Assembly (NCBI GenBank): GCA_963855995.1
Contig: OY979717.1
Coordinates: 4,891,728 to 4,955,727 of the forward strand
Length of the DNA stretch: 64,000 nt
Direction of reading: 5' to 3'
Source: Muricea muricata
Taxonomy: Eukaryota > Cnidaria > Anthozoa > Malacalcyonacea > Plexauridae
Below, piece after piece: positions 14,201 to 50,303 of the stretch (position 1 is the stretch's first letter; each line of letters starts with the position of its first letter). A model generated the notes under the pieces. It was not told the DNA's origin. It saw only the letters and a program-made list of their open reading frames with translations, and searched no databases. Position numbers and translations under genes: made by a program.

Positions 14201-17200
14201 GGTTTAATCGCTCCGCAACTCCATTTTGTTCAGGACAATATGGACTTGTGAGCTCGTGCATAATTCCCTTCTCAGCACAGTACTTGATAAAATTGTTAGA
14301 AACGTACTCACCACCATTGTCACTCCTTAATACCTTGACATGTCCTCGATTCCCACTTTGATTCTCTACAAGGGTAACATACTCCTGAAATTTGGACAGA
14401 ACTTCATCTTTTCGCTTAATAAGATAGACGGTAGTATATCTTGAATAATCATCCGTAAAAGTTACCATATAACGACTCCCACCTTTTGACTCGACTTGCA
14501 TTGGTCCACACACGTCGCTATGAATTATCTCATATGGTCTTGTGGGTCGATTGTTACTTTGCTTTGGAAATGGATTTCTATGTGATTTTCCTAAAACACA
14601 CCCTTCACATTTACTTTCTGCATGTTGGCTTGTGGTGCAATTCATTCTTGTAACCATTTCTTTCTTTGCTAGTTGATCAACAGAATTGTTATTTAAATGA
14701 CCCAATCGCTGATGCCATACTTCAGCTATTTGATCAGTTGCAGCCTGTGCTAATTCCACAGTACTCACAGTGTACAGAGTTCCATTAACCAGTTTCCCAA
14801 TAACATAATCTTTATCCTCTTTTGACGCAATACATTCTTCATTCTTAAACTTGACTTCTGCACCCATTTAGATCATTGCTGGAACTGACAACAAGTTCTT
14901 TGCTAATTTTGGCACATATAATACTTTATGTAACTCTAAATGAAAATCAGTTCCCATAGGTAGTTTGACCATTCCTTCACCCAATGCTTTAATAGCTGTA
15001 TTGTTACCCAAATAAATGTCTGTAGGTGTTTTATACTGAGTATAATTCATCAGAAGGCTTTTATCATGTGTCATGTGCTTGGTTGCTGCTGAGTCTATAA
15101 ACCACTCACTTGTTGGTTCAGTACTTGATATAAGGGCTATGCCTCCTCCTTCAGCTACATTGGAATGTTCTCCTTTGCTATTACTTCTGTTAAGTGGACA
15201 ATTCCTGACAATATGTCCCACTTGATTACATTTGTAGCACACAATCCCATCTTTATTTTGAACTCCTTGGCGTGCCGCTGTTTGCTGAAATTTATCTGGT
15301 GACTTGCAATCCTGTTGTACCCGAGCACCTCGAGAATTCTCTGGACGTCGACTATATTCTTGATTTTTACCTCGACCGAAATTTGGTTTCCTCCTTGCAA
15401 ATAAAGCACTATCTTGGCTTCTGTGGCCATCACTCTTGTCCTTTCTTTTCAAATATTCCTCGATAAGCAAACCTTTAATGTTGTCCCAATCCATTTCTTT
15501 AGCATCACGAGCATTTAAACTTGTAAGAAAATTGTCATAAGATTCTGGCAAACTGCCCAATACGACAGTGGCAAATTTTCTTGTAGAAATGTCTCCCTTC
15601 ATCTCCCGTAACTGTTTTGCTAAAGAGGTCATATAGGTTAAATGCTTCATTAAATCGCCTCCTTCCTGCATACTTGCAGCGTAGAACTTGCGGTTTAAGC
15701 GTACAATTTGAGTAATCGATACAAATTCAAATTGTTTTTGCAGATTTTGCCATGCAACTAGCGGATCCGTAGTACCGGAAATGTGAATTTGAATGTGTTT
15801 CTCCACGTTCAATGCAATCAGGGAATACGCTTTGTCCGAACGTAATTGAAAAGCATATTTCACAGCAGTCGTAGCAGTTTCGGCAGGCGGTTCTTCTTTT
15901 CCTTCCTGTGTAAAACCCCATAATCCACGTTCCATTAGAACTAACTTCAGGTTGTACTTCCACGATTGATAATTCTTGCCAGATAACTTTTCGATCTTTG
16001 TGATTTCCGCCATGTTTACTCGACTGGAAATACGATTTTCTGAATGATTTCACGCCCGACAGGACAAATATACACGTTTAAAGAAACATTATCACACGTC
16101 CTGGGCCCATAATCTATTAGAATTCGGGCACACGTATTGCTATTTGAATTGAATAAGTTTAATATGAATAAAACAACAATACAATATTACAGATGATAAC
16201 TTCGCAGTTCGTACAACAATCGAACAACGTGTTCCGAGTCACGTGATGACGTGATCCCTTTTTAACCAATCAATGTCAGTAACAACGTTTAGCATAATTA
16301 TCATATTTAACAAATTGTAGCCTAATATGGTAGTTGCCAATTTTGTTGTTAAACTGTCTGACTTTTATTCTTATGGGAGTGCTTTTTAAGAGTTTTTGTT
16401 CTCAATCTACAGGTATATTAATATGTTTTCTGAGGTTTACATAAACTAGAGTGTAAAGACTTGAATGGGCGCAATGTTTACAATGAATATAAGATTGACC
16501 CTCTTGGATTGTTATAAACAAAAAACAACTTTTAAAATATTACATCTTGTTCAGGAAAGTTAACATGACGTTTCAGGACGTTGCAGTTATTTAAAATCGC
16601 GGGCGCCTTTTTGTTGTTGTTGGCGCGAAAAAACATGTTAGTAAAAATATAAAGACAAATTTTCTGTTTATTCGTTTAATTTTCGAGCTTTAAGACATTC
16701 ACGTTGACTGTTCCAGTATTGTCGGGAACAAATGGTCCTTTGGGAGCCGGATCTTGGCTAGATTTGATTGGTAATTTGGATAATTTAACGGAATTTTCGG
16801 CGAAAAATTGATGGCGGACAAATCCAATATGGCGACAAATGTTAGTGACAATGTCAAATCGGCTAACGAAGATCCAGTGAACGCTGATAAAGACCTACAA
16901 GACACTGAAATTAATGACCATGACAACCAATTGACCGAGGGAAACAAATCTGAAGCTGCAAGCGCAGTAAGTAAAAAGATTTCAACCTTAAAAAACAATA
17001 AAAAAGCAGCGAAAAGTAGACTGACTAGAACGAAGAAAACGCTACATGATATGCTGCAAAATCGACCAGAGGATGCACCACTGCCAAGTAAAAGTAGTTT
17101 ACGCATATTATCGACGAAACTGAGTTCGGAAATGAACATTATATCTAAGATAATCTGCAGTCTAAGAGAAATCTATGCAACAAGTGAAGAGGACGAGGAT

Positions 17201-20200
17201 AACGTAACAGTCGTTGAGTCGCTAGACAAAGAATTGGACGATATCGGGGCGTTAGTGGATTCTCTAACGAGCAGTATAAAGGAGCATATTGAGCAGAGAC
17301 TCGCACAAGGAGAAAATGAGTCCGTCTCACATTCTCATAAATCTAATAAGAGTGGTGGGAAGTCAGTTCAAAGTAAAATGTCATCATTGGGAAAAAGCGA
17401 GGCGTCCCAATTGCCAGCTATTGTGGAACAAAAACAGTTGGAGGCTAAAGAGGCAGAAGAGAGATTACTTCAAATGGAGCAAGAACAAAAGGAAAAAGAA
17501 AAGGAGCTGCAAAACGTTGCAGGTGAATTACAGCTGACGAAGCAACGCACAGAGGAAGCCAGAAAAGTGGCAAAATTAAACAAATCTAGAGCGGAACAGG
17601 CTGAACGACTACTGGTGGAAAACGATGCGGATACAGTGAAAGACTTTCTGGCTGATCATGATCTTGAGAACAAACTGCCGTCGAAAGAGGCTAGTGGACG
17701 TCCAATCGGAGCACGTACCTTAGCTCCAATCAAGCTGAAGGGTGTCGATATCCCCAAATTTTCTGGCGAAGATAAAGCTGACTACGAACCGTGGAAAGCT
17801 GCGTTTATGTCCATGGTTGACATCCAAAATATATCGGTCGGTGAGAAGATGCTCCGGTTACAGGGCAGTCTGTCGGGAAAGGCACTAACAATGATAAAGG
17901 ACTTGGGATATTCGGAAGCAGCGTACGAGAGAGCTAAGTTCAAATTAGAGAAAAAATATGGAGGGGAAAAGCGTCTACAAATCAAGCATCTCACCACCTT
18001 GCGCAGCTGGCCCAAAGTTCGGTCTCGACATCTAAAAGACGTGGAAGAATTTCAAGCGCTGCTCGAACGGATTCTAATAACTGTTAAAGACTGTGGCTCT
18101 CTGCAAGACCAGAGTCTTAATTTGTCTGCTAAAGAAAAGTTATCCGAGGAAGATATTCAGGCCTACAAGTTTTGGTTGTTGGACCACTCTCGCGAAGATT
18201 GCTTTGAATCCCTGGTAGAGTGGGTTGAGCTCAAAGCTGAAGTTATGGAGGAGGCAAGAGAAGAGACCGATAGAGGCCAAAAACCGGACAAGCATGGGGA
18301 TTCGCACCACGAAAGAAAACGGTTTAGAGGCTTTAATAGCAGAAATCCAACAAAAGGATGCGTTGTAAACACCTGCAAGGAAGACCATCCACCCTGGGTA
18401 TGTGAGGCGTTTAAGAAACTTTCCGTGAAGAACAGAAAGGAGCTTATAACGAAGGCAGGTCGTTGTTATCGATGCCTGGCCGCAGGTCACCTCAGCAAAA
18501 GTTGTCAAAGAGCCCGACGATGTGGTGTCGAAGGATGCCAAAGTAGCAATCACAGCCCTTACCTTCACGAGAGCATCCCTTCCGACCAAGTTGACAGATC
18601 CAACCAAACGACCCCACCACGAGCACCCCCCTTTGTGCCGAGACAAAATAGCCTAAACAGCCCCACTGATGACTTCAGTGCCCAACAAAGAACGCATAAA
18701 ACAAGCAACGTCGACAGTGTGTCCTTAATGGTTCTCCCTGCCTTGATCTCCAACGGACGAAAGAGTCTAAAGGTAAACGTGATGTTGGATCCTTGCTCCA
18801 CGAGTTCGTACATTACCGAAGCGGCAGCAAACGAGTTAGAATTGAACGGGCAACCGTTAAATTTAACGATTGCTGGAACAGGAGGCACCGAAGTCCAAAA
18901 GCAGTCTCGTCGTGTAGAGCTTTCAGTTGTTAATCTCAATGGTCGGTTCACGGCTCCATTACAGGCATACGTACTTGATGACGTGGCAAACGACACCCCT
19001 GCCATCCACTGGTCAAAATTAAAGGAAAGATGGCCGCACCTTCGAGATGTTCCCTTTGAAAATGTGTCACGGCGACGCAGAATTGACGCAATGATTGGGA
19101 GTGACCATCCGATCTTTCACATGGTTTTAAACGAGATTCCTGGAGCAGAGCCGAATGATCCAATCGGGCGTTTGACAAATTTAGGATGGGTATGCTTCGG
19201 TCCAACATTGGTCGAGAACTTTCGGCGTGATTCGCATTCGTATTTTTCCCGTACGTATCGTAGTCGAGTAGCCGATCAACGACAACCACCTGATGATGCG
19301 ATTCGTAAGTTTTGGGAGCTCGACGCCATTGGGATTAAAGAAGACACACGCCCAGCGATGACCGCCGAGGAAAATGCAGCCGTTAAGAAAGTGAGCGAGA
19401 CCCTAAAGTTCTTAAATGGGCGCTATGAAATTGGAATACCGTGGAAAGATGAAGAGCCAAATTTTGTCAACAACTACGAGGCTGCGTTCGCACGACTCGA
19501 AAGCCTGGAAAAGTCGCTAAGGAAAAAGGGACGGGAGGTCATGCAAGCTTACAACCATATCTTTGAAGAATATGAGAGAAAAGGGTACATACAGGAAGTA
19601 CGAAAGTCCGACGTAAAAGAGCAATGGTTCCTGCCACATTTTCCGGTATTAAGACCCGAGAAAGAGACGACGAAAGTACGAACAGTGTTTGATGCGGCCA
19701 TGGAACATGAAGGCAAAAGTTTGAACAGCGCTATTCGACCAGGGCCAAAGCTCCAGAGAGAAATAGTTGACGTCCTTATTCGCTTTCGCAAAGCACCCGT
19801 CGCCCTCACAGCAGATATCGCAGAGATGTTCCTCCAAGTAAGCCTGCGAGAACAAGACCGTCCATACCATCGGTTCTTGTGGCGAAACTACGATTCGACG
19901 CGACAGCCTAAAGTATACGAATTCCGACGTCTCCTATTTGGTAACACGGCGTCACCCTTCTGCGCCCAATACGTGCTTCACACCCATGCACAGACTCATG
20001 CTGCAGAGTTTCCAGCAGCAGCAGAAGCGGTAGATGATTCGATGTATGTTGACGATCTGCTGGATTCCTGCGAGACAGTCCAAGATGCAATCACCTTGCA
20101 GTCAGAATTGTCCGACTTGCTAGCCTCTGGAGGCTTCAGGCTTCGAAAGTGGGCCTCCAACAATCTAGAAGTTCTCTGCCATATTCCCGAAGAAGACCGT

Positions 20201-23200
20201 CTTCCCAGTTTGGAAATCAATGAGCAAGAAACACCTTCGACGAAAACACTGGGAGTCTCGTGGAACGCTAAGGCGGACATCTTCACATTCTTGGTAAAGC
20301 GGCGAGATCCAAACGAAGTACCAACGAAGAGAAATGTCATTAGTACCATAGCGGCACTGTACGATCCGTTGCAATTCTTGTCACCGTTTGTTATGAGGGC
20401 CAAGGTGTTATTACAAGAGATTTGGACAGCGGGAATAACCTGGGACGACGTTCTACCAGATGAACTACGACGAAAATGGGAACAGTGGCTCAGTGAACTT
20501 CCTCAGTTATCAAACGTAGCAGTTCCACGTTGCTTGCGTAGAGCTAACCCCAACCAGACCCAATTGCATCTTTTCTCTGACGCATCAAACGCTGCTTATG
20601 CGGCCGTCGCCTATTTGGTTTGTCAATACCGAGACTATACCATTTCATCTTGTCTAATTGCATCGAAGTGTCGCGTGGCCCCGGTGAAAGCCATAACAAT
20701 ACCACGATTAGAGTTGATGGGGGCAATCCTCTCCGCTCGTCTGAGCCAAACCATCCTGAATGTGTAGACCGTAGACAGGGTTCTTTTCTGGACAGATTCA
20801 GAGAACGTTTGGCACTGGGTGCGAAACCAGAGCCGCGAATTTAAACCTTTCGTAGCAAATCGTATTGGAGAAATCCAGCGCTTGAGCGACCCCGACCAGT
20901 GGCACCATGTCCCAGGTGCGTTGAATCCAGCGGATTTGGCAACGAGAGGGCTCTCCGCAGAACAGTTGGCGTTAAGTGAATTTTGGATGGAAGGACCAAA
21001 ATTTCTGAAGGACGGTGAACCTGCTTGGCCGACACCAAAAGACCAAAAGTTGCCAGTGCCAGAGAGCTTTGAAAGACGAGCCACTACGCAGTCGCACCTG
21101 ACGCAGGATCATGATTTCCCTAGCATTGACCTGTGCCGTTTCTCCAGCCTGGAACATCTGTTGCGCGTTACTGGGTGGATAAGACGCTTTATAACCAATT
21201 GCAAGACTTTGGAACTCACCGATAGGAATTATAGTAAGACGCTTTCAATGGCAGAGATCTCGGAGGCAGAGCGACTTTGGATCAGGAAAGTTCAAGCTGA
21301 GGCCTTTCCAAAAGGCGTACGAGAAGGCTCGCTAGCTCGACTAAGTCCAATGAAGGGAAGTGATGGAGTACTGCGCATCGACGGTCGTTTACGGTATGCT
21401 GACGAACTGCCCTACAGTACGAGATGTCCCGTCCTGTTGCCCAAAGACCACCACTTTACACAACTGATTGTTCTCCACGCCCATAGGACCCTGGGACACG
21501 GCTTCGGTACGGAACACACACTCACTCAATTACGCACCAAGTTTTGGATTCCTCAAGGACGACGTGTTGTGCGAAACGTTGTCGAGCGTTGTCCAGAATG
21601 TCGTCGAAGATTCTCCACGAAACCCGCAGGTCAAATGATGGCCCCGTTGCCGAGGAGTAGATTGAGTTCGATGAGAGCTTTCGAAAAGGTCGGCGTCGAT
21701 TACGCTGGCCCGTTTAAGACGAAGCAAGGTCGTGGAACCATTCGAGCGAAGCGCTATCTGTGTCTTTTTACATGTTTAACCACACGGGCAGTCCACCTCG
21801 AGATGTCTTACTCGTTGGACACAGATTCTTTCATCAATGCGTTTTACCGTATGACATCACGGAGGGGGACGCCTCGGTACGTTATCAGCGACAACGGGAC
21901 AAATTTCGTGGGAGCCGAGCGAGAGCTAAGAGAACTGGTCGAATCCCTCAACAAAGAAAAGATAATCCAACAAACTACGAAGTTTCACCCAGTGGAATGG
22001 GAGTTTAACCCGCCGATTGCCCCTCACTTTGGAGGTGTCTTCGAGGCGCTAGTAAAGAGTGCAAAGAAGGCCATCAGGGCTATACTAGGCGACGCTGATG
22101 TTTGGGACGAAGAGCTTCACACTGCTATATGCGGGGCAGAGCGGTTGATGAATTCCAGACCAATTACCTACGTGAGTTCAGACCATAACGACCTGTCTCC
22201 ACTAACCCCTAACCACTTTCTTGCGGGCCAGTTGGGTGGGCAATTCGCGCCTGAAGCACTGGATGAAACGGTTTACAACCCAAAGAAGAGATGGCATCGC
22301 GTGCAACAACTTCTAAAGATGTTTTGGAAAAGATGGAGGAGAGAGTTTTTGCCAAGGATCAACTTGCGAAACAAGTGGTTCCACCCAAGACATAACCTGA
22401 AAAAAGGAGATGTTGTGATGATGATAGAACCTGACGCAAGCCGAGGTGATTGGCCACTTGGCCGGGTGACGGAGGTGTACCCAGGAGGAGATGGACTTGT
22501 ACGAGTAGTAAGAGTAAAGTCGAGGAACAATGAGTATGTAAGACCCATTCACCGAATATGTCCTTTAGAATATGTAGAAGAAGAGCAGTGACGCACGAAC
22601 AGTGACGTTCAAAACTTATGTTTATATTGTTAAATTTGACGTTGACGGACAGTAGGTTTCGATAACACCCCTGCTAACCGAAAAACGAATGCACTGCATT
22701 CGGGAGGGGGATGTTCAGGAAAGTTAACATGACGTTTCAGGACGTCGCAGTTATTTAAAATCGCGGGCGCCTTTTTGTTGTTGTTGGCGCGAAAAAACAT
22801 GTTAGTAAAAATATAAAGACAAATTTTCTGTTTATTCGTTTAATTTTCGAGCTTTAAGACATTCACGTTGACTGTTCCAGTATTGTCGGGAACACATCTA
22901 GATGATCTAGACTCTAGTCACCTGGTAAATCAAATTGACAGAATTTAGTTGCATGGTATGCTAAAGTATGTATATACTTTGCTAACCTAACAAGTCATAC
23001 AGACCAAGGGGAATTACAAGTAGACTCACTGCATGCTATGTTGATATTGCAGTGTGATATTAATGCTGGTGATCTTTTAAAAAGTGCAGTGTGTTCCTAA
23101 TGCTGGTGACATTTTAAAAAGCTCCAAACCCAGAAACTTGATTTTTTTATCAAGAGGTCTTTTCTTTCATAGCTTTTAGCATCTCAGCAAATATGAGATT

Positions 23201-32297: not shown

Positions 32298-33503
32298 CTA
32301 GAAAATAGCACGTCCTCGTGCTGAACAAAGACTGAGTATGTGTAGCAACAGAAAAAAAACCAAAAAACCCGAAAAAAAAACAGTTTCAAAGCACTGCGCA
32401 GCTTTGATAACGCGGACGGTTGCCAGCCGTCTACAACTGCCAATCCTAATGACGCAGGGGCGACTACAAATAGTACATATTAATTTTGATACCATTGAAA
32501 TAATATAAGAGTAAAACATGAAAACACAAGTCGACGTGACAACAGCAGGAAAAAGAGGTACACACACGCATTGAAGACAGAGGCAAAAATATAGCTTGTC
32601 TTCGTAAACCTGAGTAACCCGATCAGAAGGCATGCAAGACTGAGAAAGAGATCGCTGACGTCCGCAGTCGACACACTCTTCAGGTTCGTAGACTGAAAAC
32701 TGGTCTAATTCATGGACACTGTTTGGTTCGTCGTCGTTGTTACTTATACTACTTGTATTGTCATCGGTTGTAGCCTGTTTTGTGCGTTTTGTGTTGCAGC
32801 GTGTGCGGCGGATGTAGGTGTACGCTAAAAAGAGGCTAAGTAACAAGAGAGCCCCCCAAAGTAAGGACCCACTTAAACCACCTATAACTTGGTGGAAAAA
32901 TGAGCCAGCACCTTTGCCTGTGCTTTCTATAGCTTTGCCCGAAGAAGTTAGAACAGTACCGGACGCCTGGATAATTGCGTGAATAACTTTCGAGTCTAGA
33001 TCACCGAAGCCGGATAAACCGTCATGCAGAGCGCTTCCTAATGCCTTTACAATATGACTGCCGCCTGAACCTATGCCAGCCAAGGTGGAACCTATGACGC
33101 GTCCTATATCCAATGCAATGCTATCACTAGAGGCAGACTGTATTGCTTGCAATTCATCGAGGGTATCTTGACTGCGCGCAAGAATATCTAAAAGAGAAAA
33201 CTCGTCTAAAGGTTCGTCAACATAATGTAATAGATGGGAATTAACTCCAGGTAACTTTAGAACATGATTTGAAAAGGATGGTAGAAATATTTTAGTGTAA
33301 TTTACTGGGCTAATGGTGGCATTCTGATTTATCAGCCAAAGGTTACCATGAACATCTGTGACATATGTTGATTTTGGAATATCACCACAATTAAGAACAG
33401 GTGAATGGGCTTGTATACGATGATCCGTAAGTTGTAGGAACTTAACCTGTTGAGTAACATGCATAAAAACAGGGAATTTAGCATAGCAGGTGCCGTTATT
33501 CAT
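32298..33503 (-). pseudogene. C-terminal half of the Gypsy envelope-like region
   Basis: This open frame of ~400 residues is on the far side of the LINE insertion. It has several N-glycosylation motifs near its start, a Gly/Ala/Ser-rich stretch of ~100 residues, one strong membrane anchor (LLWGALLLLSLFLAYTYI, near 32830-32880) and a cytoplasmic tail. Further hydrophobic stretches near the end (32310-32560) may be read past the true end. The layout is that of a type I fusion-like glycoprotein, but the family is not recognised and the gene is disrupted. Confidence 0.6.
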
Positions 33504-33508
33504 TCAAG

Positions 33509-34285
33509 TCTTTATTAAAATTATAGACACAACAAACGTGTGACTTTACAACAATAATAATCTTTAACTGATCTATAATATATTTACATGATTAATAGGA
33601 ATTTAGAATATTGGCTGAAGTTACAAAGCTAGAAAACACGAAAGTTCATATTTAAAAATTATTAAAAAGACATCTATTTACAAAACATCGCTTGAACCTT
33701 TCAGTTTTAATTTGAGGAAGTATATAGTTATGATTTTGTGTCCTTAAAGTTCTATGTTTCATTTCTGGAAGAAGATCATGAAGGACATGTTCAGTATCTT
33801 TAGTAATTTTTCGGAATAAAGCTCTATCTTTCTCCTCTATTAGTGAAGACATTTCGTATTCTTTGGTGGTGTACCCATACCTACGAGCTCGTCTGAAGAA
33901 CTGGTCTATCTGTTTCAGATATTTTTTCAAGAGCGCAGAGCCCCATACTTCGATTGCATAAGTAAACAAGGATAAAATCAACGTTTCAAATAGTTTGGTC
34001 AATTGATCTCCAGCATAACCATATGATTTGCATACTCTTAGGATATACATTCGCCCGCTGGCTTTGGACAGTAATTCATCTACGTGCAAATCCCAACAAC
34101 AAGGATCATCTTGAAACTTAATACCAAGTAGTTTCATCCATTTCTTTCGTCTAATCCCATCAATTGGAGGAGGTAGCTGTTTCAATGATCCCTTACTGAT
34201 GACAATTTCCCAAGTTTTGGAAAAATTTAAGATCATTCTGTTTTCTTTTGCCCAATCACTAATATGTCCTATGTTATATGTCCTA
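33509..34285 (-). mobile_element. 5'-truncated LINE inserted in the Gypsy envelope-like region
   Basis: The minus strand encodes the C-terminal third of a LINE reverse transcriptase (DWAKENRMILNFSKTWE, then LFETLILSLFTYAIEVWGS, ARRYGYTT), followed by a short 3' end at ~33509-33650. It splits the envelope-like frame. A ~5-bp match (ATAAC on the minus strand) at the two junctions may be the target duplication. It is more diverged than, and different from, the family at 42.9-53 kb. Confidence 0.75.
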
Positions 34286-34289
34286 TTCC

Positions 34290-36375
34290 AAAAGACTTCA
34301 TATTGGGTGATATTGTGACATTGCGACATTAAATACGCATCACCTTGCGGGCTGATTATGTAGCCTGGGGCAGGCGCTATCCACTCAGAGCTACTAGTTG
34401 GAAATCGTTGAATCATCCAACGATGAATTCGATACATTTGCTGACGGTGGAGACAAATGTTTGCCCATGCACTAATCATGTTACTGCGTTCGTGTGCAAT
34501 CAGTGCGGCCAATTGTACGTTTAGTATTTCGTTCTGGAGTCGTAATTTAATAACGTCTTCTGAGTCTTTTACTAAAGCAGTTAAAATTCCGTTTTTCTTC
34601 AAAAAGCGCATGTCCTTTTCAATGTCATGAAGGACGTGAGAGCTTGCGGAAGTATTTGTAACAACGAGCCCCGAATCAAGGTAAAGTAGGTGATCTTCCG
34701 GTATTCGTTTCACGATTGTACCACCGACAGTGGCTTTAGGAACTAATATATAATCGTCTAATTGTTGTGCCGGAAAACGACCAATTGGGTGGTAATTGCG
34801 AAAATCGTGTCTTACATGGTTCCAAACAATTTGGGATTTTGGCATTTCTTTTGGTGTGCAGTGACGAGATCGATAATTGCAATGGGTGTGGGTGACACGT
34901 TGTGAAATAAGATGGTCTGATCCTCTCAATTGTGCGGGGTAGGCAACCATTTTGAAATGAGTGTAAGTGCGTGATTTTGTTTTCATCCATGAACAAGAAT
35001 ATTTATCAGGGCTAGAAGTACGCCACTCTCCGTGTGAGTGTTTGTGAAGCTTACCATAACGTGTAGTGTGTGTAAGCATTGCTCGTTGGCACTCATATCT
35101 TGAAACAGGGACAAGTGATAACCGACTATGTTTGCTTTTATGACCAAAAAAAGATTCATGGCATGTCATCCGTAATCGTTGAGCCGTACAATGATAGATA
35201 GGAAAATCAGTGCGTTTAGGGGAAAATTGCCAAACTTTTGCTGTGAAATGTTTTATTCGTGAGTCACTAAGATGCATGCGGTGTTTGCAGTTCATGTGAT
35301 TATCAAATTTGTACAAAGCAGTATGGTAAACACGAGAACAGTCATACAAACGACCTAAGTTAATGGCTAGTGTTCCGTTAATCATGCAAACCAAGGTGAA
35401 TATCACAAGTGCAATGCAGACATAGGAAGGCAATGAGTTGTTGGATCTACGCGGTTTATTATCAATTGTAGGAGGCGTAAGGAGTGCAGAGGTTGCGGAA
35501 AGTACCCGCAATTCAGCAATCGGTTGGTTCGGGTCGACCATGTCAAATTCTGGAACCCATGAATTATGTTTACTTGGATATCCTACCCATTTAACTAGAT
35601 ATTCGGTTTGGCCTTTTCGCTGGCGAGTATTGAGAATTTTTTCGATTTCAAACACATCAGAATCTACTGGTTCGGGCAGGGTTGGTCTTGGTGCATGCGG
35701 ATCTAAATCATTGGTTGTTACAGGCTCTTTGGGCATTGTGGTTTCACTCGCAAAACTATCTTCAGGCAGTTCTGATTCATCAAGCATTAAATCATCATGC
35801 TTAATATCAACGTCGGGCGAATGAGTTGGGCGGCCATCTGGATCAAAATACAATTTCATGCGGTTAACATGAACAGGATCAGACAGTAGACGATTAGCTT
35901 GAGTGCGCAGTTGAAAATTGACTGGAGACAATTGTTTGACAATGCGAAAAGGTCCGTGCCATTTGTACAGGAGTTTCTTTGACAATCCCTTTTTTGTTTT
36001 GGGTGTATAAATCCACACCTTTTGGCCGACTTTGTACTTTGTTGGTTTAGCTTGTTGGTCATAATGCGCTTTCATGGTCTGTTGTGTGCGTTCAATATTA
36101 AGTTTCGCTAAGCGCTGTGCCTCCTCAAGTTGGGTGACAATGCGCTCGCGGTGGGTGGCTATAGATGTCGCAAGCTTATCTACATTTGGTGGTAAGAGCT
36201 TTATGTCAACGGGAAAACGCGGCTCTCTGCCATATAACAAGTAAAACGGTGAGTCACCAGTCGATGCGGATGGTGAAGTGCGATAAGCAAAAAGTATGGA
36301 GGGAAGGAACTCATCCCAGTTGCGCTGATTTGCGGAGACATACATGGTGAGAGATAAATGCGTTAAACCGCTCAA
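34290..36375 (-). pseudogene. Gypsy integrase C-terminus, chromodomain, then envelope-like region
   Basis: The frame enters after the indels with SANQRNWDEFLPSILFAYRT and continues through the integrase C-terminal domain (KVGQKVWIYTP, LYKWHGPFRI). A chromodomain follows near 35560-35660 (FEIEKILNTRQRKGQTEYLV). A hydrophobic segment at ~35350-35420 and a Cys/His-rich, presumably extracellular stretch come next without any stop between polymerase and envelope-like parts. A LINE fragment interrupts the frame at ~34290. The envelope assignment rests on its position, the hydrophobic segment and the layout, not on a recognised family. Confidence 0.75.
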
Positions 36376-37641
36376 CTAAGAGTCACATTGAGAATGATAT
36401 GCGGTCGTGTTTAATTTGGTCGTGGACATAAGCTTGCAAACTTCGCGCACTAGCGTGGACAAGAAATTTTTTCCTCTATCTGAAAGCAACGTGCGAGGTG
36501 AGCCATGGCGGCAAAGGATCTCTTCGACTAACAGTTTAGCGATAACGGGCGCATCGGTTGTACGTACGGCAAAAGCCTCTGGCCACTTTGTTAAATAATC
36601 AGAGAAAACTATGACATATCGGTTTCCTGAATACGATTCCGGATAGGGCCCTAAACAGTCCACTGCTATGCGATCAAATGCTCCTTCAACAGGAATGGGC
36701 AGCAAGGGCGCCTTATGACGTTTCCGAGGTGTTTTACGCATAGCGCAAGGAGCACAGGATCGACACCAATGCTGTACGTCCTTAAATAGGCCTGGCCAAA
36801 AGTAGCGAGTACGAATTTTGGTATACGTTTTTTCTATACCTAAGTGTCCTCCCAAAGGGTCATCATGCATGGACTTCAAAACTTCAAAACGCAAGGCTGA
36901 TGGGACAACTAATTGGACAGTAGTGTCTGCTCTTTTGCGACCTGTGGGGATCCATAAATGTTGCAAGACACCATTATCATCGATCAAGTAATGATCAATT
37001 TCAGCCAAAATCTTACGACAGATGTTGTCGTCCTCAGGCAAGGTTTTAGATTCAAGATATTGAATAATATATAGGAATTCAGTATCTTTACGTTGCATTT
37101 CGCGCACGTGCTCATTTTGGTCAATAGTGAGAGAGTATAAATTTGCATGCTCGCTGGGATAAGGACGACGAGACAAAGCGTCGGCATTGCCATTATTCAC
37201 ACCCGGTCTATCCTTAATCTCAAAATCGAACTGCTGTATGAATAAAGACCAACGGGCTAAACGGCCAGTAACATCTTTAATATTCATAAGCCAGCGAAGG
37301 GCGTGATGATCTGTGTGAACCGTAAAACGCTGACCATATAGGTAAGGCTGGAATTTCTTTATTCCGCCAATTACCGCAAGTGCCTCGCGCTCAGTGGCTG
37401 AATATGCTTGCTCGGTATGACTTAAATTTCGTCCTGCGTAGGCAATAACCACCTCTCGATTATCTTGTATTTGCCCAAGAATCATTCCTAACCCTTCTAA
37501 ACTTGCATCAACATAAAGCTCAAATGGTTTACTAAAGTCGGGAAAACAAAGTATTGGTGCTGATACTAATGCATGCTTAAGAAGTGCAAATGCACTGTGA
37601 CACGCCGGGGACCAAATAAATTTTTCGTTTTTCCGAAGCAA
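36376..37641 (-). pseudogene. Gypsy RNase H and integrase (zinc domain and first part of core)
   Basis: These 421 residues begin in the connection to RNase H (FELYVDASLEGLGMILGQ, TEREALAVI, HTDHHALRWL). The integrase zinc domain follows (HDDPLGGHLGIEKTY, CRSCAPCAMRK), then the core with Asp in AVDCLGPYP and Asp in SDRGKNF. The frame is lost at 36376, just before the third catalytic residue, because of small indels at ~36350-36380. The reverse transcriptase catalytic part that should precede it is absent. Confidence 0.87.
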
Positions 37642-37692
37642 CTTTGTTAGTGGATGAGCAATTTTTGAAAAATCTTTGACAAAGCGTCGGTA

Positions 37693-38166
37693 ATAATAAT
37701 ATATTATACCTCATACTTAGCTCGTCCAATCAGAATGTTCTATTAGTAGCACGTGTCCATAGTATTTTTCTGCGAATACCATGCTATAGGAAATTCTGAT
37801 CCTAGGTTTTTTCCCCGAGGCATGGTATTCGGCCGAATATCCCGTGAGATTCGACTTTTGAATCTCACGCGACATCCCGCGAGAGCTACACGCGCCGATT
37901 AAAAACAATGAAAAATGGCGGGAGCACACAAGAGTGTATGGATATTCTACGGTGTTTTTTAAGTGGTTTCACTGGAAATTTTACAAAACAAGATGTTCAA
38001 AATACGGCAAAATTACCCAGCACTATTTACTTGATGCCCTTTAGCAAAGAAGTTTGGAAAAATTGTTTATGTAAGTGAAAAACGAAATCTCGTATTCTCG
38101 AAGGTATGTTGACAAGTTGTCCTGGACTTGAACAGTTGTATACTTTCGGTATAATATATCATTTAT
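37693..38166. other. Unassigned sequence beyond the Gypsy truncation point
   Basis: It holds short inverted stretches (GAATACCATGC with GCATGGTATTC; GTGAGATTCGACTTTTGAATCTCAC at 37842-37870), and TATATTATACC at its left edge is inverted at ~38149-38160. It may be another small palindromic element; no gene. Confidence 0.4.
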
Positions 38167-40208: not shown

Positions 40209-41756
40209 TCACGAAAAAGGTTCTGTACAATCTTTGATTTGGTATTTTTTCGCAAAAGTTTCAAACACACTCAAGAGTACTGCAGTAAAATAACACACTG
40301 ACATTACCCCTCCTAACGTAAGAGCAAGAAGATGAAGTTTCCAATGATTATACCATGCTGTAGTAATCAGAGTGTTGTGCCAGTAAATATGAATAAATAT
40401 TGATACACAATTTGCAACAAAACTTATCCCAATCCCAATCAGCACTCTTATTATGATAAACTCTTCCAGAATTTTGCGTGGATTGACATGGTAATAACTT
40501 GTTAAATATAGCACCAAATAAGCTTGACTCAGTATTATGGCTGTACTCTGATAGAGCATAATCTGAATTTCTTTGTCAACTTTCAAACGACAATGATGAC
40601 TTGATTCTTCTAGCTCTCCAAGTTGTGGACATGATCTGCATTTACGTTCGAAACATTTCCAAATTCCAATGAAAACTTTTTGCCTTATTCTGACTGTTGC
40701 TGTTTGGAAAACCTGTAATGCGCCACGAAACACTGAAAGTGCAATGAAAAAGCCCAGTTCCTTCACTCCTGCTTGCATGATGCAGTATAACAATAAACTG
40801 ATACTGTTAACAAAATATACCAGAACAAAAGTGCGTTGTTCTTCAATAAATAATAAGCTTCGCAATGCTAAGTTTTCTGATATTACCATCGGTAGAAGAA
40901 TTAAAGTTGGGGTAAGCATGGCAATTATTGCTCGCAGTATCACGCTCTCTGTATTACGAAACCAGGGCACAAACAGATACCTATATCCCATTGCTATGAG
41001 GAATCCAAGGAAGAACTGAGTTGAAAGAATAGCGAAAACGTTTCGTTTTCTCAAGCGATTGGTATTCGTAGAAAATATTTCACACACTTTTTTGGCCGCT
41101 ATATAACTGGAATAGATCACTCCAAAGAGGAAAACTGCATTTCCAGGGTACCTATATATCGTTTGAGTAAAGTCTATATTCACTTGAAACAAAGCTGTTT
41201 TGTATATCACAACGGTTAAACCAAGAATAAAACCGAGCAGCAAAGTGGATGAGTAATGTGACTTAAATTTTTTCCAACCAAATAGCAAGATCAACATGAA
41301 TTGAAACCAGAAATTAAGAGCAAAACCTTCAACATCGTGTCCAGCAATCACAAATTTCATAACGTCTTTAGGCAATGACTTATTGTTTACGAGCTGTTGG
41401 TAACAAATACTGGAGGTATTAACGTCTAAGTATAACACAGAAATCATTACTAAGCTGACAGGAATGACTGCAGCGGTTATCGTAAAACTTGTAAACAAAC
41501 TTGTTTTACAAGAACTTAACAATCTTCTTGTTGGTTGTTGATCTGGATGTCGGATAGAAATGCTGCCATAGTTTGTAATCGTGTGTTCTAGTCCAGAACT
41601 TGATTCAGTATCTGAAGAATCAACTCCAACGAAGCGGCCATTAACATCTTCGCTGTTTAGCGGTCTGGCAGCTTGTTCAATCAACGGTCGCACTGATTCT
41701 GAACTGAAGAGAAATAGAAGCCCAACAACGATCTTGTCTAAGAGTTCTTGTAGCAT
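40209..41756 (-). CDS. Multi-pass membrane protein of unknown function, intronless
   Basis: The 515-residue frame is complete, with no intron and no break. About eleven hydrophobic segments are seen, at roughly residues 88-112, 150-166, 170-190, 205-223, 243-262, 272-293, 307-330, 333-352, 400-425, 433-460 and 473-497. Residues 20-85 form a polar, Ser/Asp-rich N-terminal part, which suggests a cytoplasmic tail. A Cys-containing loop (CFERKCRSC) lies near residue 367. Length and topology would fit a transporter or receptor-like protein, but no family motif is recognised and no function is assigned. The start is the first ATG of the frame. Codon use and intactness point to a host gene rather than a transposon gene. 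The lack of introns next to intron-rich genes may mean it arose by retroposition. Confidence 0.72.
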   Translation of the reverse strand: MLQELLDKIVVGLLFLFSSESVRPLIEQAARPLNSEDVNGRFVGVDSSDTESSSGLEHTITNYGSISIRHPDQQPTRRLLSSCKTSLFTSFTITAAVIPVSLVMISVLYLDVNTSSICYQQLVNNKSLPKDVMKFVIAGHDVEGFALNFWFQFMLILLFGWKKFKSHYSSTLLLGFILGLTVVIYKTALFQVNIDFTQTIYRYPGNAVFLFGVIYSSYIAAKKVCEIFSTNTNRLRKRNVFAILSTQFFLGFLIAMGYRYLFVPWFRNTESVILRAIIAMLTPTLILLPMVISENLALRSLLFIEEQRTFVLVYFVNSISLLLYCIMQAGVKELGFFIALSVFRGALQVFQTATVRIRQKVFIGIWKCFERKCRSCPQLGELEESSHHCRLKVDKEIQIMLYQSTAIILSQAYLVLYLTSYYHVNPRKILEEFIIIRVLIGIGISFVANCVSIFIHIYWHNTLITTAWYNHWKLHLLALTLGGVMSVCYFTAVLLSVFETFAKKYQIKDCTEPFS

Positions 41757-41829
41757 ACTGTACCTTGTTTTACTATGGTTTTACATATTCCCACTTTTGT
41801 GCATTTACTGCATAAATACAACACGCGTC

Positions 41830-42929: not shown

Positions 42930-43324
42930 GATCATATGTCAAGCAACAATATGAGCAGTGATTTCTTAACAACTCACAGCTCAATCCCAAATGAAAGAGG
43001 TTTCAAAATGGCTTTTCTAAATATAGTGAGTTTACTAAAAAAAATAGATGAAATTAATTGTTCAATGGCAAACAAATTCATTGATCTCATTGCATTTAAT
43101 GAAACAAGACTTGATGCAAATATAACCGATAACATGATTAATATAGATGGCTATGATATTGTCAAAAAAGACCGATCAAGAAATGGTGGTGGGGTTTGTA
43201 TTTACTTGCGTAGCTCCATCAGTTATAAAGTAAGAAATGATCTGGTTCCAACTGAACTGGAAGCGGTCTGTATTGAAATTACTAAGCCGCATAGCAAACC
43301 ATTTCTTGTAACCACAGTCTACAG
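42930..43324 (+). pseudogene. LINE endonuclease, N-terminal part
   Basis: The frame is open from before 42930 to the hAT MITE at 43325. Residues expected of the exonuclease-endonuclease-phosphatase fold are seen: N in FLNI, E in FNETRLD. It continues at 50304 once both insertions are left out, and the reading frame is kept. Confidence 0.82.
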
Positions 43325-43469
43325 CAGGGTTGCCAGATTTCTTGAATAATTAAGCCAAACCATCATTAGTGCTGTCACAAAAACAAAGAAAACAAAAGGC
43401 AAATACAATGAAAAACAAAGAGCATTGTAAAAAGTTTGGCTAATTTATGCATGCAATCTGGCAACCCTG
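43325..43469. mobile_element. hAT-type MITE (145 bp) with 8-bp target duplication
   Basis: The ends are CAGGGTTGCCAGAT and ATCTGGCAACCCTG, with arms extending to TTAAGCCAAACC / GTTTGGCTAA. A perfect 8-bp duplication GTCTACAG lies at 43317-43324 and 43470-43477. It sits in the LINE endonuclease; leaving it out together with one duplication restores the LINE frame. Confidence 0.93.
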
Positions 43470-43488
43470 GTCTACAGACCACCCAGTG

Positions 43489-43763
43489 TATGGAAAGCCA
43501 AAGCTGACAAAAGTGTGCTGAGATGTATATTTCTATTGTTGAGTTAGTGATATGAGTACTGAACGCAGTGAAATCGTATTGAAATGTTTATAGTGATAAC
43601 TGAAATAAATATATGACGTGGCGAGAGCAATATAAGATCATTTGAGTTTTATAAGTTGATAGTCGAGAAGTATATGACAAAAAAGATAGTACGAGAAAAA
43701 TATGTGTATTGAAATAGATAAGACGAGAAAAATATATATGATGAAACAGATAAGACGAGAATT
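43489..43763 (+). repeat. Left terminal inverted repeat of the HECT/DD35E transposon
   Basis: 275 bp matching the inverse of 50021-50297. The inner end holds short tandem sub-repeats (GATAGTACGAGAAAAATAT, GATAAGACGAGAAAAATAT, GATAAGACGAGAATT). It probably carries the promoter of the HECT gene, whose ATG is 75 bp further in. Confidence 0.92.
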
Positions 43764-43837
43764 TAAGGAAGGTCAGCGGAAGCTGTAAATCTCGTTATCG
43801 TTACTTCATGAGCCTAATATACTATTGAATTAGCATA

Positions 43838-46800
43838 ATGGCGGCAAACAATCGTGCAGTTATTCGCAATTTGGTTGATCGAGTAAATGAGCTTTCAGAG
43901 ATAATATCGCCGCAATCAACTGCTTCAGTGAATGCTGAAGTGAGAAGTGTGTTTTCACCGAGAACGTCTTCTCCAAATGCGCCTTCAAATGTGGAACCCT
44001 TGCCGAATTCCCTGATGCATTCGCAAGCTGAACAGTCAGATGCTCAACCTTCACGTGCTTTACCGAGTCAACAACGACGTACAACAGATGTTACTCGTCA
44101 GTTATCAGAATTTCAATCCGATCGTGCGTCTGAAAATCGTCTTCCCATCCGTAGAAATACCACTTTCCAGGCAAGGCGTTATTTCCCAGCTTCAAGGCCA
44201 AGCACGAATTATCAAAATCGTCGAAGGGGAAATCGAGTGCAAGGACAGACACCAGATAACAGACCATTCCTGCGAGACCTAATTCTTTTAAGTGGTCCAC
44301 AGGACGAGGTTGTACCACGACAAGGAACTCGTTTAGTATTAACAGAAAATGGCCATTTTATCTCAGGTGTACGGTTTACCAAAGACCTTTCTGCTGCTGC
44401 AGTTGAGACCCGCATTATCGAAGCTTATAATGGAAAAATTCCTTCAAATGTGGACATAGAAATAATGACATCTGTTCACTCAAGTTTGACCACTCCCAAC
44501 CTAGCACCAGGACAGCTTCTGGATGGTGTGATGATTCATAGAATTTTTAGGCAAAAGCCTTTATATATTCGTCCTAGTCAACGTTTATTGGACACAGGAC
44601 ATGAAAAACAGGTACTGAAGTGTTCAGGTGCTGGCTGGTGTATGTTTGTTAGTGGAATGTCCACAAATGTTTCTTTTAAATTGTTTAACTAATTTGTTTT
44701 ACTTTCTGTAACTATAATTAAAAAATGCATTTTACATTATATTTTAGCACAAGAGGACTAACAACATTGATGAACTGGAATATGCAAGTACTGGTATGTA
44801 CCGAGCATAGGCAGGATTCTTGCTGAGGGCTAAGCCCCAGAGATATTTTGGAAAACTGTTGTAATTTAACAGAAATATATTCTTCCACTGTAACCCATGG
44901 TAATATAATTTTAAGGTCATTCATCATACAGGTCTGCAAGTGATATAAGAATTTAAACAGTAAGTATCATGCCAGTGATCCTTTAAGGTTAGTAGTTTTG
45001 AGACTCATCAGTTGCAAGAATCAGTGCTGTCGATTGTCACTGGTCAAATGATTGTCTGTCAAGAGCAAATAAGTAACCACAAACCATAGTAATGTGCTGC
45101 GGAAACCTGGTCAAGTGTGACATAGCTGGATGTAAACATAAAAATGTAAATTAAAACATGCAAAGGATCACTGGCTAGCATGATACTCACTCTTTGATTT
45201 CACTGAGTCAATGGGTATTTTCCATGCTGTTTTAAAAAGTGAAAATTGTGGTGGATAAATGAAACACAAAGAAAAGGACATTATACCAAACCTACTACTA
45301 CTTGACTGTTTCCAGTCAAGGGTGAAAGTTAGGTTTTAATCGCTTCCCCCATGGGGAGAGGGAGTAAAACCCAAACAAACCAATTAACCAAAACTCTAAA
45401 CTTGTGATACCACAAGGAATATACTTCTGCACCAAATAATTTGATTTGAGGGAGTATATAACTGTATGTTTTTAGTGCAAAGTAAACCTCAAAAAACTTT
45501 CAAAGAAACATTGCAGTATTGTGATGAGTGGTGAACAAAATGTTTTCAGACCACATTAATTAAGTCGCAAAGTCATAACAATGTTTCCTTAGTCATGCCT
45601 ATTCAGAAACTTTGCACTATCCTTGGATCCCTAGTTTTTTATAAAACTGCATTTGCCTGGTGTTTTTAACAGCATTTAATGCCGATTATTATAGTGACCG
45701 GTGAAGTCAGTCAAAATGAGACATCAGAGTCAACCACAGATGATGTGCTGCCGTCAGAACCTGATGATTGTTTCACTGTTATCATGGACATATTGGAAGA
45801 ACCAGAAAATTCATCAGAAATATCTCTTTTCTGTGATCAACAAGCAACAATTCGTAAATTTAAACAATTTTATTTGAAATTTTTGGAATTGAACTTTGTT
45901 TTAAGGCAATTCCAAGCATATTCATCCCCCATCCTGGGCAAACCCAGGGGGATAGCAAGCATGTGAAAATGCCCTGCAGAGGGACTACAAAATCTGTTGC
46001 AATGCCTTTACTCCAAGGACAGCTGGAATATACATAGACAGTGTCAAGGAGATGCTTCTGTTTAGAAGATTTCGATGTTGTTGAAGTCAAATTAAATAAC
46101 TGTTCTGATACTGAAATTGTTGGGGGGGGGGGTCGTATTGGTGGGTAAAAGAATCGTCAACTTTAAATGCCTTGCCCCCAAGAAATGGTGTGCATTCGAA
46201 AATGTGCCCAAAATGTGCTTGGCAGTAGAATGCCCTAAGGGGAATGGCCATGAGTTGACTCTGATACATTACTTTTTGTTATATATTTATATGAGTGCAT
46301 AAATACTTAGTAATCTTTTTGTTTTCAGATCAAGAGGCTAATTTAATTGATCCAGTTACGACATCAGGTATGTAAATGAATATTATTTACCATGTAGTAA
46401 TCTCACACATACTGCAACTAATACCTATAAGAAAGCAGCTTATTTTCTAAATGGCTGGGGAAAACTGTTTAAGATAATTTTGTCTAGACTAGCAAAAGTC
46501 TGGACTAACAAAAATATACTTGGACGCTCAGAATATGCGATTCAGTTTTCGTGTTTAAAAACATTGCTGCACTCACCAGGGTAAATATTATGTCCGACAC
46601 TTAAACCAATTGCGCTAGATTACTTTATCGATATATTACTCTGTGTATTACTCTTTATTGATATATTTATTATTCTTAATTGCAGATTATCAGCTTATTT
46701 TATTTTTCTTCAGAAAGAGATTCGATTGACATCCAGTGGCAACCACGACCTGTTGAGGATAGAACAGTACAAAAAATCACCGTGCATCGAGCCACAATTC

Positions 46801-47771
46801 GATCCGATATCATATCTATTTTCAAAGTTCCAGATGTGATCAGTTATAATCTTTATGCAACAGTTATCGACATGAGAGGGGAAGAAGAAGCTGGGAGAGG
46901 CATTGGTGTAATGCGTGATATTCTTACCCAATTTTGGCATGAGGTTTACAATGCCTTAACGATTGGTGCAAGCGAGCGTTCACCTATAATAAGGCATGAC
47001 ATGCAGAAGGATGAGTGGCAAGCTTTGGCTAGAGTTATTCTATATGGGTTTTCCACCCTTAATTACTTTCCTCTTCGAATGTCACCAGTAATCATTTCTA
47101 CTTGTTTATTTGGTGAAGAAATTTTGAGTAGGCAGTTTCTGCTCGAAGCATTTCGTAAGTATGTTACCAGCGAAGATCAAAAAGTGTTTGATGCATGTTT
47201 GAGTGATGAATGTGATGTCAATGACGAAGACATTATAGACTTTTTAACCGCATGGAAGTGTTGCAGAGTTCCAACGAAAGATAATATCAAAGATATCATT
47301 TTCGAGTTAGCGCACCAAGAACTGGTGCAGAAACCGCGGTACGTTGTACATTGTTGGGCGCCCATAATGAAGATGCTCCAGTTTCATGAAAGCTTCCAGA
47401 CTCTCGATGGAGTCCTTCGACTTTTCTTGGAGAAGCAGCCAACTGCCAAGAGGCTACTGAAATCACTGGAAGTAGAAACATCAAATGAAATTGAGCGGTT
47501 AACTTTAGACCACCTGAAACGATACGTAAGGTCGCTGGAAGGAAAAGCAATTGAAAGATTTCTTCACTTCATTACTGGCGCAGATTGTTTAACTGGCCAT
47601 CCTATTAAAGTTATATTCAACTCACTTTCTGGACTTCAGCGCCGACCTATCTCGCATACCTGTGGGCCCACATTAGAAGTTCCTACCACTTACGAGAGCT
47701 ATGCTGACGTTGCATCTGAATTTAACAATGTCTTAAAAGACGAACAAGCATGGTCATTCGATATTATTTAA
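43838..47771 (+). CDS. Transposon-encoded HECT-domain E3 ubiquitin ligase, five exons
   Basis: A consistent model uses exons 43838-44611, 44748-44793, 45695-45853, 46329-46367 and 46714-47771. All have AG/GT borders and matching phases, giving ~691 residues without a stop. The first ~130 residues are polar and probably disordered; residues ~140-258 form a conserved-looking folded part (PFLRDLILLSGPQ to IRPSQRLLDTG). A short acidic linker comes from exons 2-4. The last exon is HECT-like: VIDMRGEEEAGRGIGVMRDILTQFW early on, and near the end RRPISHTCGPTLEVPTTYESY, which carries the catalytic Cys (codon 47661-47663, ~residue 656). HECT ligases accept ubiquitin on this Cys and pass it to a substrate. 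It resembles host G2/M-phase HECT (G2E3-like) sequences. The short exons 2 and 4 are the least certain part. Confidence 0.8.
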
Positions 47772-48071
47772 ACTAAAATGACGCCATTGATGTTGAGTTT
47801 TTTAAACTTTTTTAGACAAAAACATATAACAACCATATTTTAAAAGATTTGATGAAGTTGTAACTTTTCACTGGGCTCAACTTCGGGTTGCTTAGTATCT
47901 ATAATGTTCTTAAAAACTGTTGGGTTACTTGTGTTTCATTTATAATTGTTTAAGTTCGTTTTCGTACAGATATAATGAAATATATATTATGAATGTATAA
48001 TTGTTATTTCAAAGTACTGAGATTAAAAAAAAAACGGTAACGTCAGTTTTGTCTTGACTAAACATTATTTT

Positions 48072-48338
48072 CAGTGGCGGCACCACACTAAACTGAATTG
48101 GGGGGGGGGATGAAGGGCAAAGGAATGTTTTTTTTTGTTGGGGGGGGGGGCAAAGTTGTTTTCAAGCGTAATACGAATGATAGTCAATAGATTGGCCATA
48201 ATTTTAATAAAACTTAGACGAATTGCGAAACATTGTAGCAATTTTTTTGGGGGGGTGGAGCAAACTTGGGGGCAGGACACAAGTTTGGATGGGGACAAAT
48301 GACCCCCTTTGCCCTCCCCTTCTCTGGCGCCGCCACTG
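48072..48338. mobile_element. hAT-like MITE between the two transposon genes
   Basis: The ends CAGTGGCGGCACCAC and GTGGCGCCGCCACTG-like (TGGCGCCGCCACTG) are inverted repeats of the kind common in hAT MITEs. The interior is G/C-run rich (several runs of 8-10 G). A clean 8-bp duplication was not found. It lies in the spacer between the HECT and transposase stop codons and does not break either. Confidence 0.6.
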
Positions 48339-48450
48339 ATTTGGCTTTCATGCATGCATTCTTGTCCACGCAAGCCGATTTGATATCACTTATTAGATTA
48401 GAAAAAATACAGTTTTTATTGCATCTATATGTTTTTTAGTCCCCGAATAT

Positions 48451-49971
48451 TTATTCTCTTTCTTGGTTATGAAGTTCATTCACAATGTCCAGTGCACTTA
48501 AATAATTTTCTATTCCATGATTTCCGTCGTCGTTTAAGGGGTCAACACGATCACATAAATACGTTAGTTGTTCGTCAGTAAATTCCACTAAGGAATTTGG
48601 CACAATCATGTTGTTTGATACTACATCTGGAACTGGACCACCATAGTCGACACCGTACTCGTTGAAGTTCACTAGTGGAGATTCATCTGTTAAGGGTATC
48701 ATATTTGATTGCCATATCGCCAAGGGAGACTGATTCCTGGATGTTCTAAGGCCATGATGATTCCATTGCTGCCTGAATTCAAACAACGAGGCATTGATTC
48801 GAGGTAAGAAAATGAAATGAAGGCAAAATAAGTGTATTTCGTCCAAAGGATCAAGCAACATGTTATCTTCCATGAACTTAAAAATACCAATGTACAATGC
48901 GGATGACACTCTATTCACTTCCGCCCACAATCTTTCAATTCTTTGATTGTGAACGGAACGTCCTGCGATAAAACTCCCTCTATTTTCACCACGGCGTGCG
49001 ATCATTTCTCGTGCGACATCCACGTTCTCGACTCCACGATCGCCTCTTACTCTTGAAGGCAGCCCAAAATCGTCCACTCCTTTTCTAAAAAGCTCAAGAA
49101 CGGTTTGAGCACAGTTGTTAGTACAACAAGTAAGATAAACTACAGTTCTACTAAATCCATCGATACAACCATGTATGACAAAGCGCCATGTTATCATCTT
49201 ATGGTTTGAATCAATGTGCCAAAGATAGTTGGGTCCAGGGACACTGTAAACTCTCCTGCAAATCGCGTATCTTCGGCGCATTTGTCTACCAATTGGGTCA
49301 ACCCTCAAAAGACTTTCCCTCACTCTTTCTCTTTGAACATTAACATTTCGTGCCTTCAGACTTCCGATTACGTATACTTCTCCACTGTAGGGAGTAAGGT
49401 GAAGAATGTTTTCGATATGAGTATCCAATTCTTCATCGAAAATTTCTGAGAAACTATCGAAAATTCCGTATTCGATCCTTCTACGACTCAGCGTTCGTTC
49501 TGATGCACCCAAAAAGGCAGCAATCGTTTTCCAGTTCATGCCTGTGTCCCTGAGTTGTTCTATTTGATCTTTGGTTATATCATAGGCTGGGCGGCCACCT
49601 GTACTTGGTAAAAATGATGTAACGGCTCTGCACCTTTCACGATCTTCTGATTGTAGAACAGCACTTATGTTACCCATCTCTGTTTCAATTCCATTTATCA
49701 ATTCTTCAAGCAACCAGCTAATCGAGGGCCTTTCACTTGCTTCACCATCCAACTGAAATCCACTAGTTGTATACAAGACGCTGTTATTGACAGCAAAGAA
49801 AATGGCTGTCACAATAGGCAAGCTTTGTTCAAGCTTTTGTTTGCAATGCTGTAAATTTACAGGATCTCTGAGGTAAAGGGACTGCTGAATGTGAAAAAAT
49901 AAACTGTCAAGCATTCCAAAAAAATCTGCGAGTTCTTCACAAGAATCATTAACACTGTTTGCAGTCGCCAT
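48451..49971 (-). CDS. Integrase-type DD35E transposase
   Basis: The frame gives 506 residues from the ATG at 49971; it is open further upstream to an ATG at 50082 inside the terminal repeat, so the start is uncertain. After an N-terminal helical part, a helix-turn-helix lies around [29 protein letters not shown] (written in two parts: [12 protein letters not shown], then [16 protein letters not shown]). The rve-type core has Asp in [10 protein letters not shown] (49210-49212), Asp in [10 protein letters not shown] (49039-49041) and Glu in [10 protein letters not shown] (48934-48936). Spacing is 57 residues between the Asp residues and 35 between the second Asp and Glu, the DD35E pattern of retroviral integrases and IS3 transposases. 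All three are kept. It converges on the HECT gene and should excise and insert the element. Confidence 0.88.
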
Positions 49972-50020
49972 GTTTTCAACAATGGCGAAGTGTTCGGTTG
50001 GGTCGTTTAGCGTTTTAATT

Positions 50021-50297
50021 AATTCTCGTCTTATCTGTTTCATCATATATACTTTTCTCGTCTTATCTATTTCAATATACATATTTTTCTCGTACTATCT
50101 TTTTTGTCATATACTTCTCGACTATCAACTTATAAAACTCAAATGATCTTATATTGCTCTCGCCACGTCATATATTTATTTCAGTTATCACTATAAACAT
50201 TTCAATACGATTTCACTGCGTTCTAAGTACTCATACCACTAACTCAACAATAGAAATATACATCTCAGCACACTTTTGTCAGCTTTGGCTTTCCATA
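50021..50297 (-). repeat. Right terminal inverted repeat of the HECT/DD35E transposon
   Basis: 277 bp, the inverse of 43489-43763 with ~98-99% identity by eye. The open frame of the transposase runs a short way into it. It probably carries the transposase promoter. Confidence 0.92.
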
Positions 50298-50303
50298 CCA
50301 GTG

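Follow-up and report, generated by a model that had tools for sequence, protein, structure and literature searches.

A DNA transposon of the IS3EU/GingerRoot type pairing its transposase with a HECT ubiquitin ligase gene in the genome of Muricea muricata

Structure of the element and its two genes

The stretch of DNA analysed here (the window) comprises 64,000 nucleotides of the genome of the anthozoan Muricea muricata (assembly GCA_963855995.1, contig OY979717.1, positions 4,891,728 to 4,955,727, forward strand). At 43489..50297 it holds a DNA transposon of 6809 bp, to which no strand is assigned, with the termini TATGG..CCATA and two genes lying tail to tail, one encoding an integrase-type transposase and the other a protein that ends in a HECT E3 ubiquitin ligase domain. 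The element begins with TATGGAAAGCC and ends with GGCTTTCCATA, and is flanked on either side by the target-site duplication (TSD) CCAGTG (43483..43488 and 50298..50303). Its terminal inverted repeats (TIRs), at 43489..43763 and 50021..50297, are 98.2% identical over 277 aligned columns and each contain 32-bp direct repeats near the inner end; the length of 275 bp given in a preliminary description of this DNA is right for the left copy, while the right copy measures 277 bp. When the empty site was rebuilt by taking out the element and an adjoining insert resembling a miniature inverted-repeat transposable element (MITE), with one copy of the TSD kept, the rejoined flanks gave an open endonuclease frame of a long interspersed nuclear element (LINE), ...VTTVYRPPSESSEFFDHF... 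Both ends and the TSD are therefore correctly placed and the insertion is real, as the preliminary description had it in giving exact borders, a length of 6809 bp and a CCAGTG duplication. The small MITE-like insert (43318-43477) has inverted repeats that match imperfectly and a duplication of 7 bp (TCTACAG), and lies inside the same LINE as the larger element.

The transposase gene (48451..49971, minus strand) encodes 506 aa with an integrase core (Pfam PF24764, 1e-78), a weak N-terminal helix-turn-helix match and the catalytic triad D254/D311/E346. NCBIfam matches to IS481 (4e-10) and IS3 (4e-4) each fall under their own cut-offs. Across 120 homologues, D254 is kept in 118, D311 in 117 and E346 in 117. 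The usual convention counts the residues between catalytic positions, of which there are 56 and 34; the enzyme is therefore better labelled DD34E than DD35E, the kept D, D and E of the earlier account being correct and its spacing of 57 and 35 being differences between coordinates.

IS3EU/GingerRoot elements have TA..TA termini, usually a 6-bp TSD, and an integrase-like DDE transposase without an HHCC motif, according to the main text of Kojima and Bao 2023 (PMC10045372). The present element resembles them in its termini, in the length of its TSD and in its DDE transposase, whose core is of the IS3/IS481 type, and by these sequence features it fits within this superfamily. The Pfam listing for the element's proteins contained no HHCC zinc-finger match.

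The HECT gene, on the plus strand, is predicted to consist of five exons (43838..44611, 44748..44793, 45695..45853, 46329..46367 and 46714..47771) separated by GT-AG introns and forming an open frame of 691 aa. The five-exon structure proposed at the outset thus exists as an open model, but a predicted four-exon alternative is equally in frame; exon 3 can be skipped without loss of frame, exons 2, 3 and 4 come from splice-site prediction only, and homologue support is confined to exons 1 and 5. Exon 1 (258 codons) encodes an N-terminal helix, a low-confidence linker and, tentatively, a beta-grasp domain (ubiquitin/PB1-like) around residues 139-252. Exon 5 encodes a complete bilobal HECT domain with the C-terminus ...AWSFDII. 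Its predicted catalytic Cys, in the motif HTCG, is residue 316 of the exon-5 frame and, by alignment with homologues and AREL1, is encoded at 47661..47663 (plus strand).

Against Pfam PF00632, exon 5 of the window scores 16.5 bits, below the curated cut-off of 23.9, so its membership of the HECT family is claimed from fold and Cys and not from Pfam. PF00632 matches at E<=0.01 in 23 of the 29 members of an alignment of the family (A2), the window's exon among them. The predicted structure of the exon-5 domain has a bilobal HECT fold (predicted local distance difference test score, 93), and its top matches in the PDB are HECT ligases, including AREL1, TOM1, HUWE1 and UBR5, with identities to the listed solved HECTs of only 11-16% in structural alignments. 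A profile of the family also matches solved HECTs, and in this match the predicted Cys falls on the Cys of the AREL1 sequence AHTCFNQL. Among 97 HECT proteins, the catalytic Cys is present in 91 of the 93 homologues covering the position, the preceding Thr in 87 of 93, and the Phe four residues from the C-terminal end in 77 of the 88 that cover it. Relatives, profile match and structural model together identify exon 5 as a predicted HECT domain, and the HECT domain with a kept catalytic Cys noticed earlier is thereby borne out. Named relatives come from octocorals, stony corals and, distantly, a scallop; the general Pfam scan listed no PHD or RING family in the proteins scanned. The protein shares the bilobal fold and the catalytic Cys with the host E3 ligases UBR5, HUWE1, AREL1 and TOM1, and differs from them in its low identity, in being carried by a mobile element and in the tentative beta-grasp domain in front.

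Recurrence of the transposase-HECT pair

Searches were run on the window's own genome (453 Mb, 74 contigs). The transposase query gave 94 matches, merged to 84 loci (a lower bound, with 85 of 1259 candidates scored), and the HECT exon-5 query gave at least 120. A HECT match lay within 8 kb at 24 of the 84 transposase loci, the window included, against 0.36 expected, and in 23 of these 24 the genes were tail to tail; pairs were counted with 68 of the 120 HECT matches and then with the rest, which added none. Pairing fell with transposase identity, from 17/30 loci at >=50% through 6/19 at 45-49% to 1/35 at <45%. A HECT profile and divergent queries revealed further convergent HECT open reading frames (ORFs) beside L019, L027, L033 and, weakly, L032, and hence the fall is at least partly a matter of query sensitivity. 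A convergent HECT stands at 26 of the 30 best transposase loci, one of them weak (L032). The profile had no match in the window's 562 ORFs outside the element, and one of its matches elsewhere (L030, within an inverted array) was on the wrong side.

At three loci that were negative with the exon-5 query and then read further (C4:9.08M, which is L069 and the same locus as L033; C2:30.96M, L070; C12:7.40M, L071), a divergent HECT-like gene was found each time in convergent orientation. N-lobe matches to AREL1 were seen for L069 (E 0.001) and L070 (1.7e-4), while L071 has a C-lobe scoring 26.4 bits, above the Pfam cut-off, and a weak N-lobe match. With these, a HECT or HECT-like gene accompanies 30 of the 84 transposase loci. 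A related family is represented by a complete element (L067) of 5547 bp with TIRs, the TSD TTAGAC and both genes. The same tail-to-tail arrangement thus recurs in several families of this genome, which answers in the affirmative the question of whether elements of the same kind also carry HECT and runs counter to the one-off capture that the preliminary description gave as its refuting outcome, and the central claim of the preliminary description, an integrase-type DNA transposon bringing its own HECT ligase with both convergent frames open, is confirmed.

Two inverted arrays, at G000:C2:7753607-7764796 (L046, L030, L047, L031) and G000:C3:21402220-21410609 (L045, L029, L048), contain two opposed HECT matches, and IS3EU transposase matches lie either between these or next to them; this suggests composite or inverted-duplicate structures.

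Comparison of the 120 listed of 1662 transposase matches with the 97 HECT proteins gave four pairs on contigs of identical size (6314, 8672, 1255001 and 2603702 bp). For the two on short contigs (6314 and 8672 bp) the chance expectation is 0.08 together; for the two on contigs >1 Mb, of which the 2.6-Mb pair corresponds to Dendronephthya gigantea LOC114522227 and LOC114522251, the result establishes a shared contig and not adjacency. On contigs <3 kb, 0.6 coincidences were expected and none was seen. The pair therefore probably recurs in other assemblies. Three IS3EU-type transposases (L001-L003) lie on short contigs binned in a metagenome-assembled genome of a Cycloclasticus sponge symbiont, and are probably host contamination of this public bacterial genome.

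Constraint, rival explanations and possible role

At codon positions 1/2/3 the eight HECT loci compared differ by 0.42/0.30/0.62 and the ten transposase loci by 0.46/0.33/0.65, with position 3 near saturation, and the constraint pattern of the two genes is similar. The loci were picked manually from matches free of inner stops, a choice that favours intact genes, and three of the eight HECT loci (C2:4.77M, C1:85.26M and C1:94.53M, two of them near identical) have no listed transposase nearby. Protein distances of transposase and HECT across the window and the four pairs from other assemblies correlate at r = 0.94, a value reached by only the observed one of the 120 possible orders. Since the ligase accompanies the transposase through several diverged families with similar constraint, it appears to be an old, selected partner. 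Many copies within families are near identical, so several families have moved recently; the changes between such copies are too few to show selection. Taken together, these data indicate, with a probability of roughly 85%, that the element is a complete and little-decayed IS3EU/GingerRoot-type transposon with a tail-to-tail transposase and HECT E3 ligase of its own, the pairing being old and apparently kept by selection, and the HECT gene seems to be a functional component of the transposon.

A number of observations weigh against this conclusion. With the exon-5 query, 60 of the 84 transposase loci gave no HECT within 8 kb, pairing nearly vanished among the transposases most distant from the window's, and the loci read further were a small sample, just three. 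In that sample the evidence is partial: L070 yielded neither a Pfam match nor a C-lobe or Cys, and the C-lobe of L069, at 21.0 bits, is under the cut-off of 23.9. Four of the 30 best transposase loci (L022, L025, L028 and L031) have no convergent HECT in the stretch read, the HECT near L031 being on the same strand as the transposase, and nine of the 30 best HECT matches (L038, L040, L042, L044, L057-L060 and L063, counted by eye) lie more than 8 kb from any listed transposase. Near-identical copies are frequent among the paired loci, which are therefore not independent. Of the copies close to the window's element, the one on C12 has lost 2.2 kb at its left and has an incomplete transposase, and that at C1:61.7M carries stops; the HECT exons of the window and C12 copies differ by 1 synonymous and 4 nonsynonymous changes, as expected without selection after insertion. 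In the other assemblies, the HECT ORF on the 6314-bp contig (P0147) ends before the Cys.

The ligase would be active and aid the element by ubiquitylating a target, with the beta-grasp region as a natural candidate for binding the substrate or a partner. The start of each gene lies 50-75 bp from the inner end of a TIR copy, on the side facing the middle of the element, so a single promoter sequence could serve both, and the TIR, being the same at both ends, could drive transposase and ligase alike. A helper role gains support from fungal IS3EU elements, which carry alpha-kinase and TET/JBP dioxygenase helpers. According to PMC12730594, these have TAYGG..CCRTA ends, a 6-bp TSD and TIRs >30 bp, and in all those with TET the TET/JBP gene is flanked on one side by the transposase and on the other by an alpha-kinase gene opposite in orientation to the transposase; the authors consider that TET/JBP likely aids escape from methylation silencing. 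The coral element resembles them in its ends, its TSD, TIRs exceeding 30 bp and a protein-modifying enzyme gene opposite to the transposase, and differs in carrying, in an animal genome, a HECT ligase in place of alpha-kinase and TET/JBP. The recurrent HECT partner here parallels the fungal alpha-kinase.

The most likely target, at about even odds, would be a host factor for silencing, repair or restriction. A less probable candidate, though the next in line, is the transposase encoded by the element itself, or the complex it forms, on which the ligase might limit copy number or time transposition. Co-expression is plausible with both genes near copies of the same TIR, and the two proteins co-diverge, as interacting partners would; plain linkage, however, predicts co-divergence equally, and TET/JBP in fungal IS3EU, as described in PMC12730594, points to host-directed helpers.

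It is unlikely that the HECT protein now lacks ligase activity and serves for binding or as a scaffold: the weak Pfam score and the distance from solved HECTs would fit such a loss, but the predicted bilobal fold and the widely kept Cys, Thr and Phe argue against it. That HECT is a functionless passenger captured once by this single element is very improbable, for although the window's family has few copies, the others damaged, and some HECT matches stand apart from any listed transposase, this is contradicted by several families having HECT at the same tail-to-tail position, by its co-divergence with the transposase and by the similar codon-position pattern.

Known relatives, wider meaning and neighbouring elements

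Many known helper proteins of DNA transposons target DNA itself or its methylation, nucleases and TET/JBP being examples. The main text of PMC10045372 does not mention 'HECT' or 'ubiquitin'. Kolobok transposons, according to PMC9587614, form separate lineages with separate accessory genes, mostly nucleases and a helicase; they are alike in having accessory enzymes lineage by lineage and unlike in belonging to another transposase superfamily, and that text makes no mention of 'ubiquitin'. In Cottus fish, a passage of PMC5638112 lists an unclassified repeat candidate of increased copy number matching G2E3, which shares the match to a HECT-type ligase but in that passage is tied to no transposase. 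Our literature search found no publication joining IS3EU with HECT; Repbase and the original GingerRoot description lay outside it, so prior notice is possible.

A broader proposal can be made, to which we give somewhat better than even chances as a whole. In it, HECT would be a core ancestral second gene of the animal branch of IS3EU, under conservation about as strict as that of the transposase; IS3EU elements of different kingdoms would each depend on an enzyme dedicated to protein modification, an alpha-kinase in fungi and a ubiquitin ligase in animals, for overcoming host control or regulating transposition; and some of the HECT-type genes multiplied in animals would be transposon genes that have been taken for host genes. 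For a transposon lineage that keeps a ligase, the ligase's binding partners could reveal an opposing animal factor or a step of transposition that needs ubiquitylation. Caution is also needed when HECT genes of corals, and perhaps of fish, are attributed to the host, as they may belong to transposons.

Elsewhere in the window lie a Copia-type long terminal repeat (LTR) element with gag and RVT_2 (11863-16046, minus strand) and a BEL/Pao-type LTR element whose frames are long and open (16784-22588, plus strand; Peptidase_A17, RVT_1 and DUF5641). Two minus-strand ORFs of 400 and 522 aa (32298-33500 and 40209-41777) have no Pfam match at E<=0.001. Between them, a Ty3/gypsy-type element (33652-37707, minus strand) encodes an integrase and a chromodomain, and its last ORF also matches the fusion domain of rhabdovirus spike glycoprotein (PF00974, 1.2e-6), and is thus envelope-like.
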